DNA from: Desulfobacterales bacterium
Lineage (GTDB): Bacteria > Desulfobacterota > Desulfobacteria > Desulfobacterales > JAUCGF01
Length of the DNA: 15,561 bases
Assembly (NCBI GenBank): GCA_029940345.1
Contig: JAOZRC010000044.1
Span: 1 to 15,561, forward strand
Direction of reading: 5' to 3'
In this document: positions 159-11,886 of the stretch, in pieces
How the letters are laid out: the number at the start of each line of letters is the position of its first letter
Numbering within the stretch: position 1 is the first letter of the stretch
The notes under the pieces: generated by a model
What the model was told of the DNA's origin: nothing
The model's input: the letters and a program-made list of their open reading frames with translations, nothing else
Databases searched by the model: none
Made by a program: the position numbers and the translations under genes

Positions 159-1400
159 ATGAAAAAGCGTAAAAAAAAGATAAAAAGTAACCTTGGTTTT
201 GATGTTGGCCATTATTTAGGGAACTATCCGCTTAATTCCCGATTTGCAGAAGCTTACCGTACGTTACGTACGAATGTACAGTTTTCTTTTATGAAGAAAG
301 AGTTCCGCTCTCTTTTGGTTTCCAGTGCGACTCAATCTGAAGGTAAAACTGTTACCGTTGCCAATCTGGCCTATTCTTTGGTTCAAGACGGGAAATCAGT
401 ATTGATGATAGATACGGACTTGCGTAAGCCGTCGCTTAGTAAGATTTCACCTTCCCATGGTTCCTTGGGCGTAACCGGATTATTGGCGGAAGTTTTTTTC
501 AATGATATCGACAACGGTTCTTTAAGGGAATTTGGTTTGGAAGATCTGTTTAGTCTCATTTATTTACAAAAACGAAACGGTATTTTAAACCTGACTGAAG
601 GACAAGAAGAGATTGAGTTTGCATTCATGCTTGGCAAATTGGTGGATATGAATTGGATTAGCCGTCCTATTAACCAGGGATTAACCGCTTTTCTAATAAA
701 AAACAAATTATTAAGTGCCGAAAATGCCCAGGAAGCGCTACTGATTCACAAACAAACCGGCCAAAAACTGACATTTATTTTAGCGAATACCGGGCTTATA
801 AAAAAAGAAGACCTGGTTGCGCCTCTGTCCATGTATGTTATAAAGGGCTTACGCACCGCAATGCAATTTAAAAAAGGGCGGTTTGCTTTTAACAATGCGG
901 CCGAATCAGACTTTGATCCATCTTTTTTCGATCCGATCAATTATGATAAATTATATAAACAACTAAGCAGGGGGGCTGAAAATATCCCCTATATTAACAA
1001 CAAAATCACATCAAATATAATTTCAACTGAAACCGAAAATCTTTTTTTACTTCCTTCAGGCAATATTCCGCCCAATCCTTCGGAACTTTTAGGTTCTGAA
1101 CGGATGTCTTTTTTAATTGCCAACCTTGAAAAAAGATATGACGTTTTAATCTTTGATACGCCGCCTGTTCTACCTGCCAGCGATGCGCTGCTTCTTGCAC
1201 CCAATACAGATGGTGTGCTACTCATTATTAAAGCAGGTGAAGTCAACCGGGAATTAATCCTGAAGGCGGTGGAGCAATTTCGCCTTTCGCAGTCTAAAAT
1301 ATTAGGTGTCGTGCTTAACCAGGTAGACGCCAAACCCGGGAGCTATTATTATAAATACTATCAAAAATATTATTCAAGTTACTATGGGGAAAGCGCCTGA
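159..1400 (+). CDS. BY-type tyrosine kinase (CpsD/CapB/Wzc-C family) with nested PATAN/DUF4388-like insert
   Basis: Cytoplasmic bacterial tyrosine autokinase of 413 aa; the family controls polysaccharide polymerisation and export through phosphorylation of a C-terminal tyrosine cluster. Visible motifs: family N-terminal segment FAEAYRTLRTNVQFS (29-43); Walker A SATQSEGKT (56-64); Walker A' LMIDTDLRKP (82-91); family motif LFLLPSGNIPPNPSELL (295-311); Walker B DVLIFDTPP (328-336); and nine tyrosines within 396-409. Family kinase domains are about 210-240 aa. The excess lies at about 118-275, between Walker A' and the PPNPSELL motif. That insert has a PATAN/DUF4388-like start (EDLFSLIYLQKRNGILNLTE, 128-147), a helical middle like the N-terminal domain of GspE/MshE (about 175-219), and a typical PATAN ending (MQFKKGRFAFNN, 235-246). 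No membrane segment is present, so a separate Wzc-N/GumC-like partner is expected. The ATG is the first after an in-frame TGA at 147-149; no SD is seen. The kinase call is firm; the insert identity is inference from pattern. Confidence 0.9.
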   Translation: MKKRKKKIKSNLGFDVGHYLGNYPLNSRFAEAYRTLRTNVQFSFMKKEFRSLLVSSATQSEGKTVTVANLAYSLVQDGKSVLMIDTDLRKPSLSKISPSHGSLGVTGLLAEVFFNDIDNGSLREFGLEDLFSLIYLQKRNGILNLTEGQEEIEFAFMLGKLVDMNWISRPINQGLTAFLIKNKLLSAENAQEALLIHKQTGQKLTFILANTGLIKKEDLVAPLSMYVIKGLRTAMQFKKGRFAFNNAAESDFDPSFFDPINYDKLYKQLSRGAENIPYINNKITSNIISTETENLFLLPSGNIPPNPSELLGSERMSFLIANLEKRYDVLIFDTPPVLPASDALLLAPNTDGVLLIIKAGEVNRELILKAVEQFRLSQSKILGVVLNQVDAKPGSYYYKYYQKYYSSYYGESA

Positions 1401-1420: not shown

Positions 1421-2965
1421 ATGAAACCCAATAGCGTCATAATTAAAAGTGTTATAATCAGTCTGATCGTTATTTTTTCGGGATTATTTTGCTATTTCCT
1501 GAGTCTTCGTTTCTCCGCTCAGATTTGTGACCTGCGTGCTGGTAAACTATTACAAAAAGGTTCTCATGTTGCTGCGACTGACATGTTAAAAAAAACAATC
1601 CAAATTCAGCCTTCAGATTATCAGCGTCAAAAAGCCTTGGCCGGTGCCTATAAACAATTGGCCTTATCAAAATCAGATGTGAAGCATATAAAACAATTTA
1701 TTGGAAAGTCTAAACAGCATTATCTTGCAGCGATGCAACTGAACCCTTTTGACGCCGATGGCATTTTCAACCTTGCATTGGTCGAAAGTCAATTGGAAGA
1801 AGATTTTCGCCTTAAAAACAAAAAGAATCCGGTTAGTTATAAAACTCGCACCTATTTTGATATGGCAATCCGCCTGAATCCGAATGGGACCTACTATCGT
1901 TATGCTCTCATCCAGTATCTTCATCACAGTCACCAGACTCAGGAAATTTTTCAGTATGTTAGTGCGATGACACGTATTGTACCCGAAACATATCATCTTC
2001 TTGAAAAAGAACCTTTCTGGCCTTTAGCTAAAAACGCCGCGGTCAAAGGATTATACCAGTCAATAAATGATAATATCAGGCCGTTGGAAGCTTACCAGGT
2101 GCTATCCGACCTATTCGACCGAGATAAGCAATGGAAACAGGCTGTGCAAACCAAAGAGAAAGTCATTGCTTTAAAGTCTGCTTCAGGTCTGATGACAATT
2201 AGAGACTATATTCGTTTGGGACAATTGAACATCAGAAGGAATCGTTACCGATATGCCGTTCAAAACTTTTTAACTGCATTGGATTTAAGTAAAAGCCGGA
2301 ACGATACGCTTGAACAAATATATCGTATTTACGAGAAGGAAAAATGTAGTGAACGGTATGTATGGCTGCACATGAATTTGAAACAGCATCTTCTTGATCC
2401 CGTAAAAACAGAACTGATCCATGCGCGTTCTTTGTTGGATTCTAATAACCATATAAAAGCGAAAAATATCCTCGAAGAATTAGTCGAGACAAAGAAGGTA
2501 GCGCAGGCTTATTACTTACTGGCTCGTATTGCTCAAATTGATAAAAATTGGAAGGCTATGGAAGAAGCCATCTTGGAAGCGATGGTGCTTGATCCCGCTA
2601 ATATCCGTTACATTCAGACGCTATACGGATTGTATTGGAGACAGGGTCAGCTCAATGTATTGGAAAAAAAACTAAATAAAGCCATTGAACGGCCTAGTTC
2701 AAACTCTACATGGTTTTATCATACCCGCGCCCGATTACATTTTAGGCGCAAGGACTTTTCCAAAGCGATAAAAGACTGGAAGGCGGCGATACGCCTGGTA
2801 CCGAAAGATGCTCATTATTATGCCGAGATAGCGGAAAGTTATTTAAAATTAGGGGATATAAATAAGGCGTTGACCTATTATCAGCAGGCTATTCAAATCA
2901 ATCCTCGCAATAAGAATTACCCCAAACGATTAAAGGCGATCAAAGTAAAAGCATCTGAAGTATGA
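1421..2965 (+). CDS. Membrane-anchored TPR-repeat protein
   Basis: A 514-aa protein with one N-terminal hydrophobic segment (about residues 7-28), followed by a long soluble helical region; probably anchored in the inner membrane with the repeats in the periplasm. TPR-type helix pairs are clearest at about 36-66, 362-395, 431-462 and 464-497; the last two carry the consensus pattern (A-x-x-Y near the start, A-L-x-Y-Y-x-x-A-I-x-I-N-P near the end). The middle (about 160-340) is more degenerate. TPR proteins of this build often sit beside polysaccharide polymerases and act as scaffolds or polymerisation cofactors; that role here is inferred from position only. It starts 20 bases after the kinase stop, with only a weak AGG upstream, and its stop overlaps the start of the ligase gene by 4 bases (ATGA), so the three genes are very likely co-transcribed and possibly translationally coupled. 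Confidence 0.85.
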   Translation: MKPNSVIIKSVIISLIVIFSGLFCYFLSLRFSAQICDLRAGKLLQKGSHVAATDMLKKTIQIQPSDYQRQKALAGAYKQLALSKSDVKHIKQFIGKSKQHYLAAMQLNPFDADGIFNLALVESQLEEDFRLKNKKNPVSYKTRTYFDMAIRLNPNGTYYRYALIQYLHHSHQTQEIFQYVSAMTRIVPETYHLLEKEPFWPLAKNAAVKGLYQSINDNIRPLEAYQVLSDLFDRDKQWKQAVQTKEKVIALKSASGLMTIRDYIRLGQLNIRRNRYRYAVQNFLTALDLSKSRNDTLEQIYRIYEKEKCSERYVWLHMNLKQHLLDPVKTELIHARSLLDSNNHIKAKNILEELVETKKVAQAYYLLARIAQIDKNWKAMEEAILEAMVLDPANIRYIQTLYGLYWRQGQLNVLEKKLNKAIERPSSNSTWFYHTRARLHFRRKDFSKAIKDWKAAIRLVPKDAHYYAEIAESYLKLGDINKALTYYQQAIQINPRNKNYPKRLKAIKVKASEV

Positions 2966-4251
2966 ACGCCGCATCTGTCGAAGTAAATAGCCTTACCGCT
3001 GCTCGAAGTTTTTTTTCGGGTATTGTACGTTATTTCATTTACTTTCTTCTTCTCTTTACACCGCTGGTGCGTGGTTCTGAACCCCCATGGGCAGTGTCAA
3101 TTATTCATTTCGTCACTCTGCTTGCTTTAACAGCGGTGTTGATCCAAAGAAGCCTTTTGTGGGATTGGCAACTTCCACGAATAGTGATGAATAAGCCGAT
3201 TGCTGTTCTCCTGTTGATTGTCTTTTGCGCGACTTGTTTTTCAAAAATTCCGCATATCAGTACCTGGTCTGCCATTTTATTTGGCAACTATATTATTCTC
3301 TTTTATTTGGTGATTGATACTGTCGCTAAACGCACTCATCTGCGCCAATTGGTTTATGTTATTATCGCTGTTGCCGCTTTCCTGGCAATTGTAGGGCTTC
3401 TAAAAATATCCGGGAATAATCCCTTCCCATGGTGGAATTATGCGCCTGGCACACTAAATCTTGATTTGGCATCCGGTTCATCCACTTTTAGCAATCCGAA
3501 TCGATTCGCCGGCTATATGGAGATGGCGTTTCCGTTGACACTCGGAATGCTTTTTACCGGTTTTAAAGGTGGTAAACGTTTTCTGATAGTGTACTTATCT
3601 TTGATGATGCTGATTGTGCTTGTTTTCACACGTAGCCGAGGTGCCTGGATTAGCACCATTCTGAGTATAACTTTTATCACGATACTTTACGTCAGAAATT
3701 ATCCAAAGAATCGTTTTAAACTGCTTGCGGCTGCCATTACCGGTTTTATTTTTTTTGGTATTGTTATTTTGTCTAGCAGGGGTGTGGTTGAAGAATTTAA
3801 AACACTGAAATCCGTACAATCGGATGCCAGTTTCACTTCTCGCCTGACCTTATGGAAACATCTCGCGGAAATGATTCGAGACTATCCGTTGCTTGGAACC
3901 GGTCCGGGTACATTCAGCACAATGTTTACGCAATACCAACCAGCGGGTTTCCAGGTGCGCTTTTACAGGGCGCATAACGATTATCTTCAGTTCATCACGG
4001 AAGTAGGACTTCCACTGATGATTGTATATATATGGATAATATATCTGTTCTTCAAGAGAGGTTTAAAAAAAATAAAACATCCGAGTCGTCTAGTGCGGGG
4101 GACTACCTTGGGGGCCATGACCGGTGTAATGGCTACGCTCATTCACAGTATGTTCGATTTTAATCTCAGGATTCCTGCGGATGCGATTTTATTCACCGTA
4201 CTGGTGGCGATTGTGGTCGCACGATCGCCCAAATCCTTAGAGCCTGTTTGA
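2962..4251 (+). CDS. O-antigen ligase/polymerase family membrane protein (Wzy_C-like)
   Basis: A 429-aa polytopic inner-membrane protein with roughly ten to twelve hydrophobic segments. Family signatures are SNPNRFAGYMEM (177-188), TRSRGAW (223-229), the long periplasmic loop before RAHNDYLQFITEVGLP (336-351), and a late HSMFDFNLRIPA (395-406). The His of AHND is the conserved residue implicated in WaaL ligases. The family transfers undecaprenyl-linked glycans to lipid A-core or protein, or polymerises repeat units; which reaction applies cannot be told from sequence. The start overlaps the TPR stop (ATGA). The last codons (GAG CCT GTT TGA) belong to the inserted MITE. Joining the DNA across the element at its TTA duplication restores TTA GCC TTG ATT GTA TAG, so the pre-insertion protein would have ended LALIV at 430 aa. 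Function is probably unaffected. Confidence 0.9.
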   Translation: MNAASVEVNSLTAARSFFSGIVRYFIYFLLLFTPLVRGSEPPWAVSIIHFVTLLALTAVLIQRSLLWDWQLPRIVMNKPIAVLLLIVFCATCFSKIPHISTWSAILFGNYIILFYLVIDTVAKRTHLRQLVYVIIAVAAFLAIVGLLKISGNNPFPWWNYAPGTLNLDLASGSSTFSNPNRFAGYMEMAFPLTLGMLFTGFKGGKRFLIVYLSLMMLIVLVFTRSRGAWISTILSITFITILYVRNYPKNRFKLLAAAITGFIFFGIVILSSRGVVEEFKTLKSVQSDASFTSRLTLWKHLAEMIRDYPLLGTGPGTFSTMFTQYQPAGFQVRFYRAHNDYLQFITEVGLPLMIVYIWIIYLFFKRGLKKIKHPSRLVRGTTLGAMTGVMATLIHSMFDFNLRIPADAILFTVLVAIVVARSPKSLEPV

Positions 4252-10552: not shown

Positions 10553-10615
10553 TTAACAATAGAAATCAGCGATTAATATTAAATAATTTTCTTGATCGAA
10601 TTAAGTTTACTATCT

Positions 10616-11029
10616 ATGAACGAAGTTATAAAAGTACATCATCTAACCAAGAAATATTTACTCGGACAAACTCACACCGACTTATTGAGCGAAAAAATTT
10701 CAAATGGATTGCGCGGGATATATCGTCGTTTAACCTCTAAAAAAATTGGAAAATCAGAAAACACCACGAATTGTCAGGTAAAACGGGAAATATCCGCACT
10801 TAAGGATGTCAATTTTGAAGTTCAACAGGGAGATGTGATTGGTGTCATTGGATGCAACGGCGCAGGTAAATCAACACTTCTTAAAGTTTTATCTCGAATC
10901 ACATCACCTACTTCCGGAGAAGTGGAAATTCATGGACGGATTGCCAGTCTTCTTGAGGTGGGAACAGGTTTTCATCCGGAATTGACCGGAAAGGAGAATA
11001 TCTATCTTATGGAGCTATTTTGGGAATGA
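10616..11029 (+). CDS. Wzt fragment, N-terminal half (Walker A)
   Basis: This half has 137 codons and ends at the premature TGA at 11027-11029. It carries the first beta-strand [11 protein letters not shown] (4-14), a long variable segment typical of Wzt between strands (about 20-58), Walker [10 protein letters not shown] (79-87, with Cys where Arg or Pro is common), and [18 protein letters not shown] (111-128), which occupies the Q-loop region in Wzt proteins. The last six residues (MELFWE) are out of frame. Alone it lacks the ABC signature and Walker B and could not hydrolyse ATP. No SD lies upstream. It starts 63 bases after the permease stop, a gap in which I see nothing notable. Confidence 0.7.
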
Positions 11030-11886
11030 ACCGTAGGGAAACCAAAAAGAAATTTGATGAAATCATTTCCTTCGCCGAAATCGAAAAATTTATCAATACA
11101 CCTGTTAAAAGATATTCCAGCGGGATGTATGTACGCTTGGCCTTTTCAGTAGCCGCGCATCTCAATCCTGATATTCTGTTAATAGATGAAGTGTTGGCTG
11201 TAGGTGACCTGGCGTTTCAGAGGAAATGTCTTAACACAATTGATAAAGCGGCTCATCAGGGGCGTACGGTACTGTTTGTAAGTCATAATATGGCCAGTAT
11301 AAAAAATATTTGCAAATCCGTGCTTTACTTAAAAAACGGTCAAGTAGATTCACTTGGCCATGTCGATGCCATTATCGAACGATATTTAGGAGAAACGGTT
11401 CCTGTCGAAGCAATCCTGGAATTCCCCGACCAGTACCACTATCGCCAATCCGGTTTGCAGATCAGAAAGGCTGAAGTGTTGAATCAAGCGTATCAACATA
11501 CCAGCATAATACGTTATGGGGAAGATTTCCATATTAGATTAAGCATACAAACGATTGAGCAGGTCAAAGGAGCGCGTGTAGGATTCGGCCTTTGCACAAA
11601 CGGTGTGCGTTTAGCCACTATTCATACAGATCCGCTTGATTTTCCCGTGGATTCATCTCTTTGGCGATTAACTTGCAGAATAAAAGGCGCCATATTGCTA
11701 CCGGGATTTTATGAACTTCAATTGGGTGCCCATTCTATTGAAACGGGAAAAGAACTGGACTGGGTTTCGGAGCCAGTTAATTTCAGAATTGCATATTTTA
11801 CTAAAAATGACATCTATAGTTACGATGCCAAGGAAAAGGGATTGGTGAAGTTAAACGTCAAATGGGAAGGTGATCTGATCGGATAA
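11020..11886 (+). CDS. Wzt fragment, C-terminal half (signature, Walker B, carbohydrate-binding domain)
   Basis: A 288-codon frame whose first usable starts are TTG 11020 or ATG 11026; it may not be translated independently, since no SD is visible. It holds the ABC signature [12 protein letters not shown] (31-42), Walker [14 protein letters not shown] (51-63) and the H-loop FVSHNM (86-91). After about residue 125 comes the C-terminal beta-sandwich of Wzt proteins, with [13 protein letters not shown] (141-153), [11 protein letters not shown] (166-176), [17 protein letters not shown] (188-204) and [12 protein letters not shown] (226-237). In characterised Wzt proteins this domain binds the modified non-reducing end of the finished O-chain and sets export specificity. 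Presence of the domain suggests the glycan carries a terminal cap. Confidence 0.75.

Follow-up and report, generated by a model that had tools for sequence, protein, structure and literature searches.

A predicted bacterial tyrosine kinase of Desulfobacterales with a PATAN/DUF4388 domain nested in its catalytic core

Bacterial tyrosine kinases (BY-kinases) bear on the length and the export of capsule and exopolysaccharide, and to our knowledge how cells tune these kinases is poorly known. Here we describe a gene for such a kinase, interrupted by a regulatory-type domain, that lies near the start of a 15,561-nucleotide (nt) stretch of DNA (the window; contig JAOZRC010000044.1 of assembly GCA_029940345.1) from a Desulfobacterales bacterium. 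In described systems of the CapAB/CpsCD type the kinase is separate from the membrane co-polymerase, as is the window kinase, whereas the Gram-negative BY-kinases Wzc, Etk, VpsO and BceF differ from the window kinase, which is unfused. Excerpts of PMC12220298 describe for BY-kinases a cycle that involves an octamer and the tyrosine tail, and mention an alpha2 oligomerisation interface. The PATAN (DUF4388) regulators PatA, PixG, PixE and LsiR are response regulators according to parts of PMC7690835 and PMC10519157, and an MshEN domain is found in NfrB on a polysaccharide synthase controlled by cyclic di-GMP (c-di-GMP), as an extract of PMC8669469 has it. The tandem c-di-GMP motif consists of two 24-residue motifs with a 5-residue spacer, and a relaxed form of it is printed in the portion of PMC5013675 available.

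On balance we lean towards the view that the window protein is a BY-kinase with a nested regulatory or docking module, and that this module derives from one that senses c-di-GMP. Judged from its sequence the protein is a BY-kinase, as it has Walker A, A′ and B motifs in a P-loop core, a C-terminal tyrosine cluster and an EX2RX2R motif (Table 1), which we take to be the element so named in BY-kinases, with a role in oligomerisation. Profile searches, proposed as a check in the earlier note on this DNA, matched both the kinase and DUF4388. TIGR01007 (polysaccharide biosynthesis tyrosine autokinase) matches the kinase above its cut-off (E 2.3e-52, 177.5 bits, cut-off 108.05) in two pieces, one on either side of an insert, and Pfam DUF4388 (PF14332) matches amino acids (aa) 120–249 (E 1.1e-12, 48.4 bits, gathering cut-off 25; nt 492–1013 alone give E 1.4e-13). 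The insert lies between Walker A′ and the PPNPSELL motif, both of which are where the earlier note had placed them, and the AlphaFold model has, as that note had envisaged, an ordinary CapB/Wzc core closing around a separately folding insert. The predicted core compares with CapA1B1 at 1.4 Å, and nt 471–1019 modeled by themselves reach a pLDDT of 88.3 and a pTM of 0.83. The XrtA-associated tyrosine autokinase family (TIGR03018) was ruled out as an assignment, the window kinase scoring 123.4 bits against a cut-off of 230.65. Spindlin matches in a search of structure-chain sequences fall on the tyrosine-rich end and are probably due to chance.

The extent of the insert follows from a comparison within the genome. 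Four further BY-kinases encoded in this genome (contigs C443, C42, C32 and C854) lack the insert and have a loop of about 10–15 residues there; their cores measure 222–227 aa (224 aa in the paralogue used for the length estimate) against 393 aa in the window kinase over a nearly equal profile range, which places an insert of close to 166 aa at about aa 118–285. The insert of about 155 aa that had been claimed from the letters alone is thus real, but slightly longer and further to the right. Since stand-alone DUF4388 proteins of the phylum align with it up to profile position 179–181, a whole domain is nested here and not the two ends of one. The same earlier reading had taken the ends for PATAN and the middle for a GspE/MshE-type helical domain; the Pfam match and a profile match in the PDB bear out both identities, but not the separateness of the middle. 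The PATAN domain reportedly contains an alpha-helical insertion of its own, as Makarova et al. are said to have noted in 2006, so the MshEN-like middle is probably part of the PATAN/DUF4388 domain and no third module. Such a helical middle is also present in the 21 other DUF4388 stretches that we compared.

That this middle has the GSPII/MshEN fold is indicated by a clear profile E-value together with a modest structural Z. A profile of 33 inserts matched in the PDB the GSPII/MshEN domain of Thermus thermophilus PilF (E 3.2e-19, kinase aa 172–223) and MshE of Vibrio cholerae (E 8.7e-9, kinase aa 172–227), and no BY-kinase chain at E up to 10; VIA-align matched MshEN/GSPII domains to the insert at modest Z. 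Foldseek with the insert returned no match under E 0.001, and that PF05157 (presumably T2SSE_N) is missing from the kinase matches listed up to E 10 says little.

The layout is not unique to the window. A homologue search with the window kinase found 4346 proteins at E ≤0.001 among 7998 scored, and PF14332 is carried by all of the best 120 of these 4346, that is, by the window protein and 119 others (hereafter the window's group), an answer to the architecture search that had been suggested as a check. Eight of the listed homologues come with organism names, six of them deltaproteobacterial (Desulfatibia, Desulfonema, Thermodesulfobacteriota, Deltaproteobacteria) and two from Pseudomonadota. 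Of 291 genomes sampled from the window's order, 37 show an insert-type match at E ≤1e-30. A full-length kinase-type match occurs in 5 of 297 genomes sampled from the phylum, the window's own included, and with two further kinases among the weaker matches (L034 and L044), which were judged only where the locus sequence was fetched, the figure is at least 7 of 297. A scan of genome contigs with one peptide pattern, which is not a census, gave 11 relatives, of which 7 proved to be of the kinase type when matched over the full length. Insert-bearing kinases were also seen outside the window's order, in L102 (G167:C72) and in the L034 just named (G279:C45), and the 862-aa frame of L102 also reads, by eye, as a Wzz-type co-polymerase part. 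Within the window's genome the sole other insert-like match at E ≤1e-8 is a DUF4388 protein (G000:C969, L100). The earlier statement that no characterised kinase has this layout agrees with our search of open-licence papers, which found in the records listed no description of a BY-kinase with a nested PATAN/MshEN domain and found the term DUF4388 only in a paper on a nitrite reductase; many uncharacterised proteins do have it. Compared with the orthologue in a second species of the genus, the insert has a dN/dS of 0.064 and the core one of 0.056, which indicates that the insert is under purifying selection.

Table 1. Positions of the kinase, its motifs and domains, and the downstream genes in the window (counts out of 120 refer to the window's group).
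Feature	Position (nt)	Strand	Basis or conservation
BY-kinase gene with nested DUF4388/PATAN domain, 413 aa	159..1400	+	Open frame; TIGR01007; DUF4388
EX2RX2R motif EAYRTLR, aa 31–37	249..269	+	115/120, window protein included
Walker A SATQSEGKT, aa 56–64	324..350	+	EGK[ST] in 119/120, window protein included
Walker A′ VLMIDTDLRKP, aa 81–91	399..431	+	Loose pattern matches 119/120
Nested DUF4388/PATAN domain, about 166 aa, aa ~118–285	510..1013	+	Pfam; alignment with insert-less paralogues; AlphaFold2
MshEN/GSPII-like helical unit within PATAN domain, aa ~169–229	663..845	+	Sequence profile, predicted structure
Degenerate 53-aa stretch at the tandem c-di-GMP motif site, aa 174–226	678..836	+	Motif comparison
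PPNPSELL, aa 304–311	1068..1091	+	Related motif in 112/120
Walker B VLIFDTPP, aa 329–336	1143..1166	+	Pattern matches 119/120
C-terminal tyrosine cluster, aa 396–409	1344..1385	+	9 Tyr among last 25 residues
TPR protein, co-conserved downstream	1421..2965	+	TPR families; beside kinase in 20/24 loci
Wzy_C-type O-antigen ligase/polymerase	2962..4251	+	PF04932 E 1.5e-25

A second set of insert-bearing kinases is fused to a co-polymerase. A search with one of them (P0121, 876 aa) found 22 further GNVR-kinase proteins with DUF4388, most of them also with a Wzz part, and this fused group (n = 23) consists of P0121 and 22 of the 23 matches, P0144 being left out (TPR and other domains, no kinase domain). 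Among its source names are Candidatus Scalindua, Candidatus Kuenenia, Planctomycetes, Desulfosarcina variabilis, Pseudomonadota and a metagenome-assembled genome of Odoribacter. The insert sits at the corresponding position of the kinase, as judged from Pfam coordinates in five proteins and, in three loci, from where the core profile breaks in two. Walker A is present in all 23, but EX2RX2R in none and four or more tail tyrosines in only three (compared with 119 of 120 in the window's group), and the kinase of the fused group may therefore be regulated or built differently.

The two groups also differ at the c-di-GMP motif. In the window protein positions 1, 3, 10, 17 and 24 of motif I are occupied by G, T, K, A and H, and positions 3 and 24 of motif II by T and Y (R1->G, G3->T, G10->K, L17->A, Q24->H, G3′->T and Q24′->Y), so that 7 of 16 key positions are changed, or 6 if Ala at 17 is taken as hydrophobic. 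The doubt that the earlier note had voiced about the binding motif was thus well founded. Nine of the 120 proteins of the window's group retain the glycine at position 3 of motif I, against all 23 of the fused group and all 21 of the other DUF4388 proteins, and motif II ends in Gln or Asn in 13/120, 23/23 and 18/21, respectively. The relaxed tandem motif of PMC5013675 is found in 13 of the 23 fused proteins and in none of the 120, the window protein (P0001) among them, while the cut-off of the NCBIfam model of the MshE-related c-di-GMP motif is exceeded by all seven fused-group proteins scanned. We conclude from these comparisons that the module of the window protein is probably blind to c-di-GMP. 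As for the stand-alone DUF4388 proteins in this comparison (21 from L025–L049 and L016; L033, L036 and L048 were left out, as were L034 and L044, being kinases), their conservation of Gly3 suggests that many DUF4388 regulators may be c-di-GMP receptors.

The window begins at a contig end, and the genes upstream of the kinase fall outside it. In L077, from the second species of the genus, and in the majority of related loci the genes run beta-barrel, Wza, Wzz/GNVR co-polymerase, kinase, TPR protein and Wzy_C ligase. We counted 24 of 28 loci, leaving out L010, L012, L013 and L016 (duplicates, too short or non-kinase). Among those counted, one genome contributes two loci (L090 and L091), L088 is a fused-group locus, L011 opens at the edge of its contig, and in L096 the sequence upstream is short. 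A barrel lies upstream in 21 of the 24, a Wza-type protein in 23 and a co-polymerase in 23, in two of these fused to the kinase (L087, L088); a relative of the CpsB/CapC phosphatase is upstream in seven, and downstream a same-strand TPR relative is found in 20 and the ligase in 15. That this protein is a barrel was read from a single member of its cluster, L078 (PF10082, E 9.3e-18), the member in L077 having no Pfam match. From this conserved export order we take the window kinase to be the cytoplasmic partner in a Wzc-like pair whose halves are encoded separately, and the pairing of separate co-polymerase and kinase genes is supported from within the window's own group, where L087 (9307–12126) and L010 (an Olavius symbiont) have co-polymerase and insert-bearing kinase in one protein of 939 aa. 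In P0090 and P0104 the insert-bearing kinase carries the GNVR end of a co-polymerase. The TPR protein of the window, for which no role is known, seems by eye to have a hydrophobic stretch at its N-terminus. Further downstream, what reads by eye as a Wzt-like ABC-transporter ATPase (10592–11886) is split over two overlapping frames (10592–11029 and 11020–11886), apparently through a frameshift or an error in the sequence.

Whether the two groups share one origin of the insert was addressed with a tree of the kinase core (96 rows, 233 columns), which used 15 of the 120 listed proteins; left out as incomplete, duplicate or odd were L066, L111, L112, L115, L125, L129, L131, L020, L012, L011, L015, L009, P0122, P0123 and P0125. 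All insert-bearing rows but one are on one side of a weak branch (51/92), and the exception, L024, groups with insert-less kinases. Neither a constraint that keeps all 68 insert-bearing rows together (p-AU 0.315) nor one that keeps the 45 rows of the window's group together (p-AU 0.213) was rejected. A single acquisition is thus compatible with the data, and two separate acquisitions also fit.

We propose that the window kinase would act as the cytoplasmic kinase half of its Wzc-like pair in an exopolysaccharide export operon, with a complete PATAN/DUF4388 domain, including its MshEN-like unit, plugged into the loop between Walker A′ and PPNPSELL. The kinase would go through the customary cycle, in which tyrosine tails are trans-phosphorylated and octamers assemble, and through the nested module a further input would be able to raise or lower it. 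Such gating by a signal through the insert is plausible. c-di-GMP would serve as this input in the fused relatives; for the window's clade a bound protein partner or another ligand would be more likely, because the binding residues are mostly changed, the module is under purifying selection and three residues of the insert are conserved in a group-specific way (W166 in 114/120, R169 in 118/120 and P170 in 116/120). Both proposed roles have precedent, in the MshEN domain on the NfrB synthase and in PATAN binding to PilB. More tentatively, and as something possible rather than probable, we suggest that all these kinases form one family, perhaps from a single acquisition, in which c-di-GMP would directly set phosphorylation and so chain length in the fused group, to which planctomycetes and some Desulfobacterota belong, and the split group would have converted the module to a different receptor.

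An alternative that we consider unlikely, though it deserves to be kept in mind, is that the insert is purely structural or serves docking, for instance onto the separate co-polymerase or the TPR protein, and switches nothing. Kinases unfused to their membrane part would need some means of docking, the co-polymerase is the regular upstream neighbor and twice fused to the kinase, and the tryptophan, arginine and proline just named are specific to the group, no W-x-x-R-P pattern being visible by eye in the stand-alone DUF4388 stretches compared. Yet the insert is retained where docking across chains would be unneeded: in L087, a fused protein of the window's group, in P0090 and P0104 with their attached GNVR end, and throughout the fused group.

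That the window protein is itself gated by c-di-GMP, its MshEN-like unit binding the nucleotide in a divergent way, seems improbable to us. The homology and fold of the unit speak for it, as does an extract of PMC11731258 in which the consensus is widened to R, K or L at position 1, and three of the five other kinases of the window's group that were scanned (P0006, P0031 and P0090) pass the NCBIfam cut-off, if narrowly, which weighs against a c-di-GMP-blind module; P0003 and L087 stay below it. On the other side are the seven changed key residues, and the window protein scores 28.4 bits over aa 177–221 (E 1.1e-6) where 38 are required. The closest published parallel to its degenerate motif would be GSPII-A of T. 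thermophilus PilF, which has one near-perfect and one degenerate motif and does not bind c-di-GMP according to the parts of PMC11731258 and PMC12002112 available. Canonical binding was judged unlikely, given the score below cut-off, the lack of a tandem motif and the changed positions.

A similarly low probability attaches to a link between polysaccharide export and type IV pili or gliding, on the model of the PATAN regulators that act on PilB in Synechocystis. PATAN response regulators bind PilB in the sections of PMC7690835 and PMC10519157 consulted, and the other DUF4388 protein of the window's genome (L100) has as its neighbor what looks by eye like a PilB/GspE-type ATPase with an MshEN-like stretch of its own at the start. 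Against the link, no pilus gene is present among the annotated neighbors of the kinase loci, which are only some of the neighbors. Lastly, that the insert is an assembly artefact, a neutral passenger or a lone oddity can be dismissed, for although the window's genome is in 1024 contigs, the insert is present in the complete chromosome of Desulfonema magnum (L013) and in all 119 other best homologues of the 4346, and its dN/dS speaks of selection.

We favor, then, a nested regulatory or docking module of c-di-GMP-sensing descent. If such a domain, with relatives that carry the c-di-GMP motif, does regulate a BY-kinase, it would form a direct bridge from the main biofilm second messenger to tyrosine phosphorylation. 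Moreover, our comparison suggests that PATAN/DUF4388 domains have as their helical insertion a unit of the MshEN type, which would bear on many uncharacterised regulators.

Compared with known systems, the window kinase shares core fold and sequence, Walker motifs and tyrosine tail with CapB of Staphylococcus aureus (PDB 4jlv, 2ved, 3bfv), but the 4jlv chain has about five residues where the window kinase has about 170, and the operon is, unlike the CapAB/CpsCD type, of a Gram-negative type with Wza and an outer-membrane barrel. The XrtA/PEP-CTERM systems (TIGR03018) and EpsF/EpsG have a related kinase, co-polymerase and export neighbors; scores here stay below the curated cut-offs, and the kinase models match as two pieces around the insert. 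With the PATAN regulators the insert shares the DUF4388 profile, and with stand-alone DUF4388 proteins it corresponds over nearly the full length, but the copy in the window is nested in an enzyme core. With the MshEN/GSPII domains of MshE, PilF (GSPII-B) and NfrB, finally, it shares the helical unit by profile and predicted fold, but lacks most of the polar and glycine contact positions, and is in this respect nearer to the non-binding GSPII-A.
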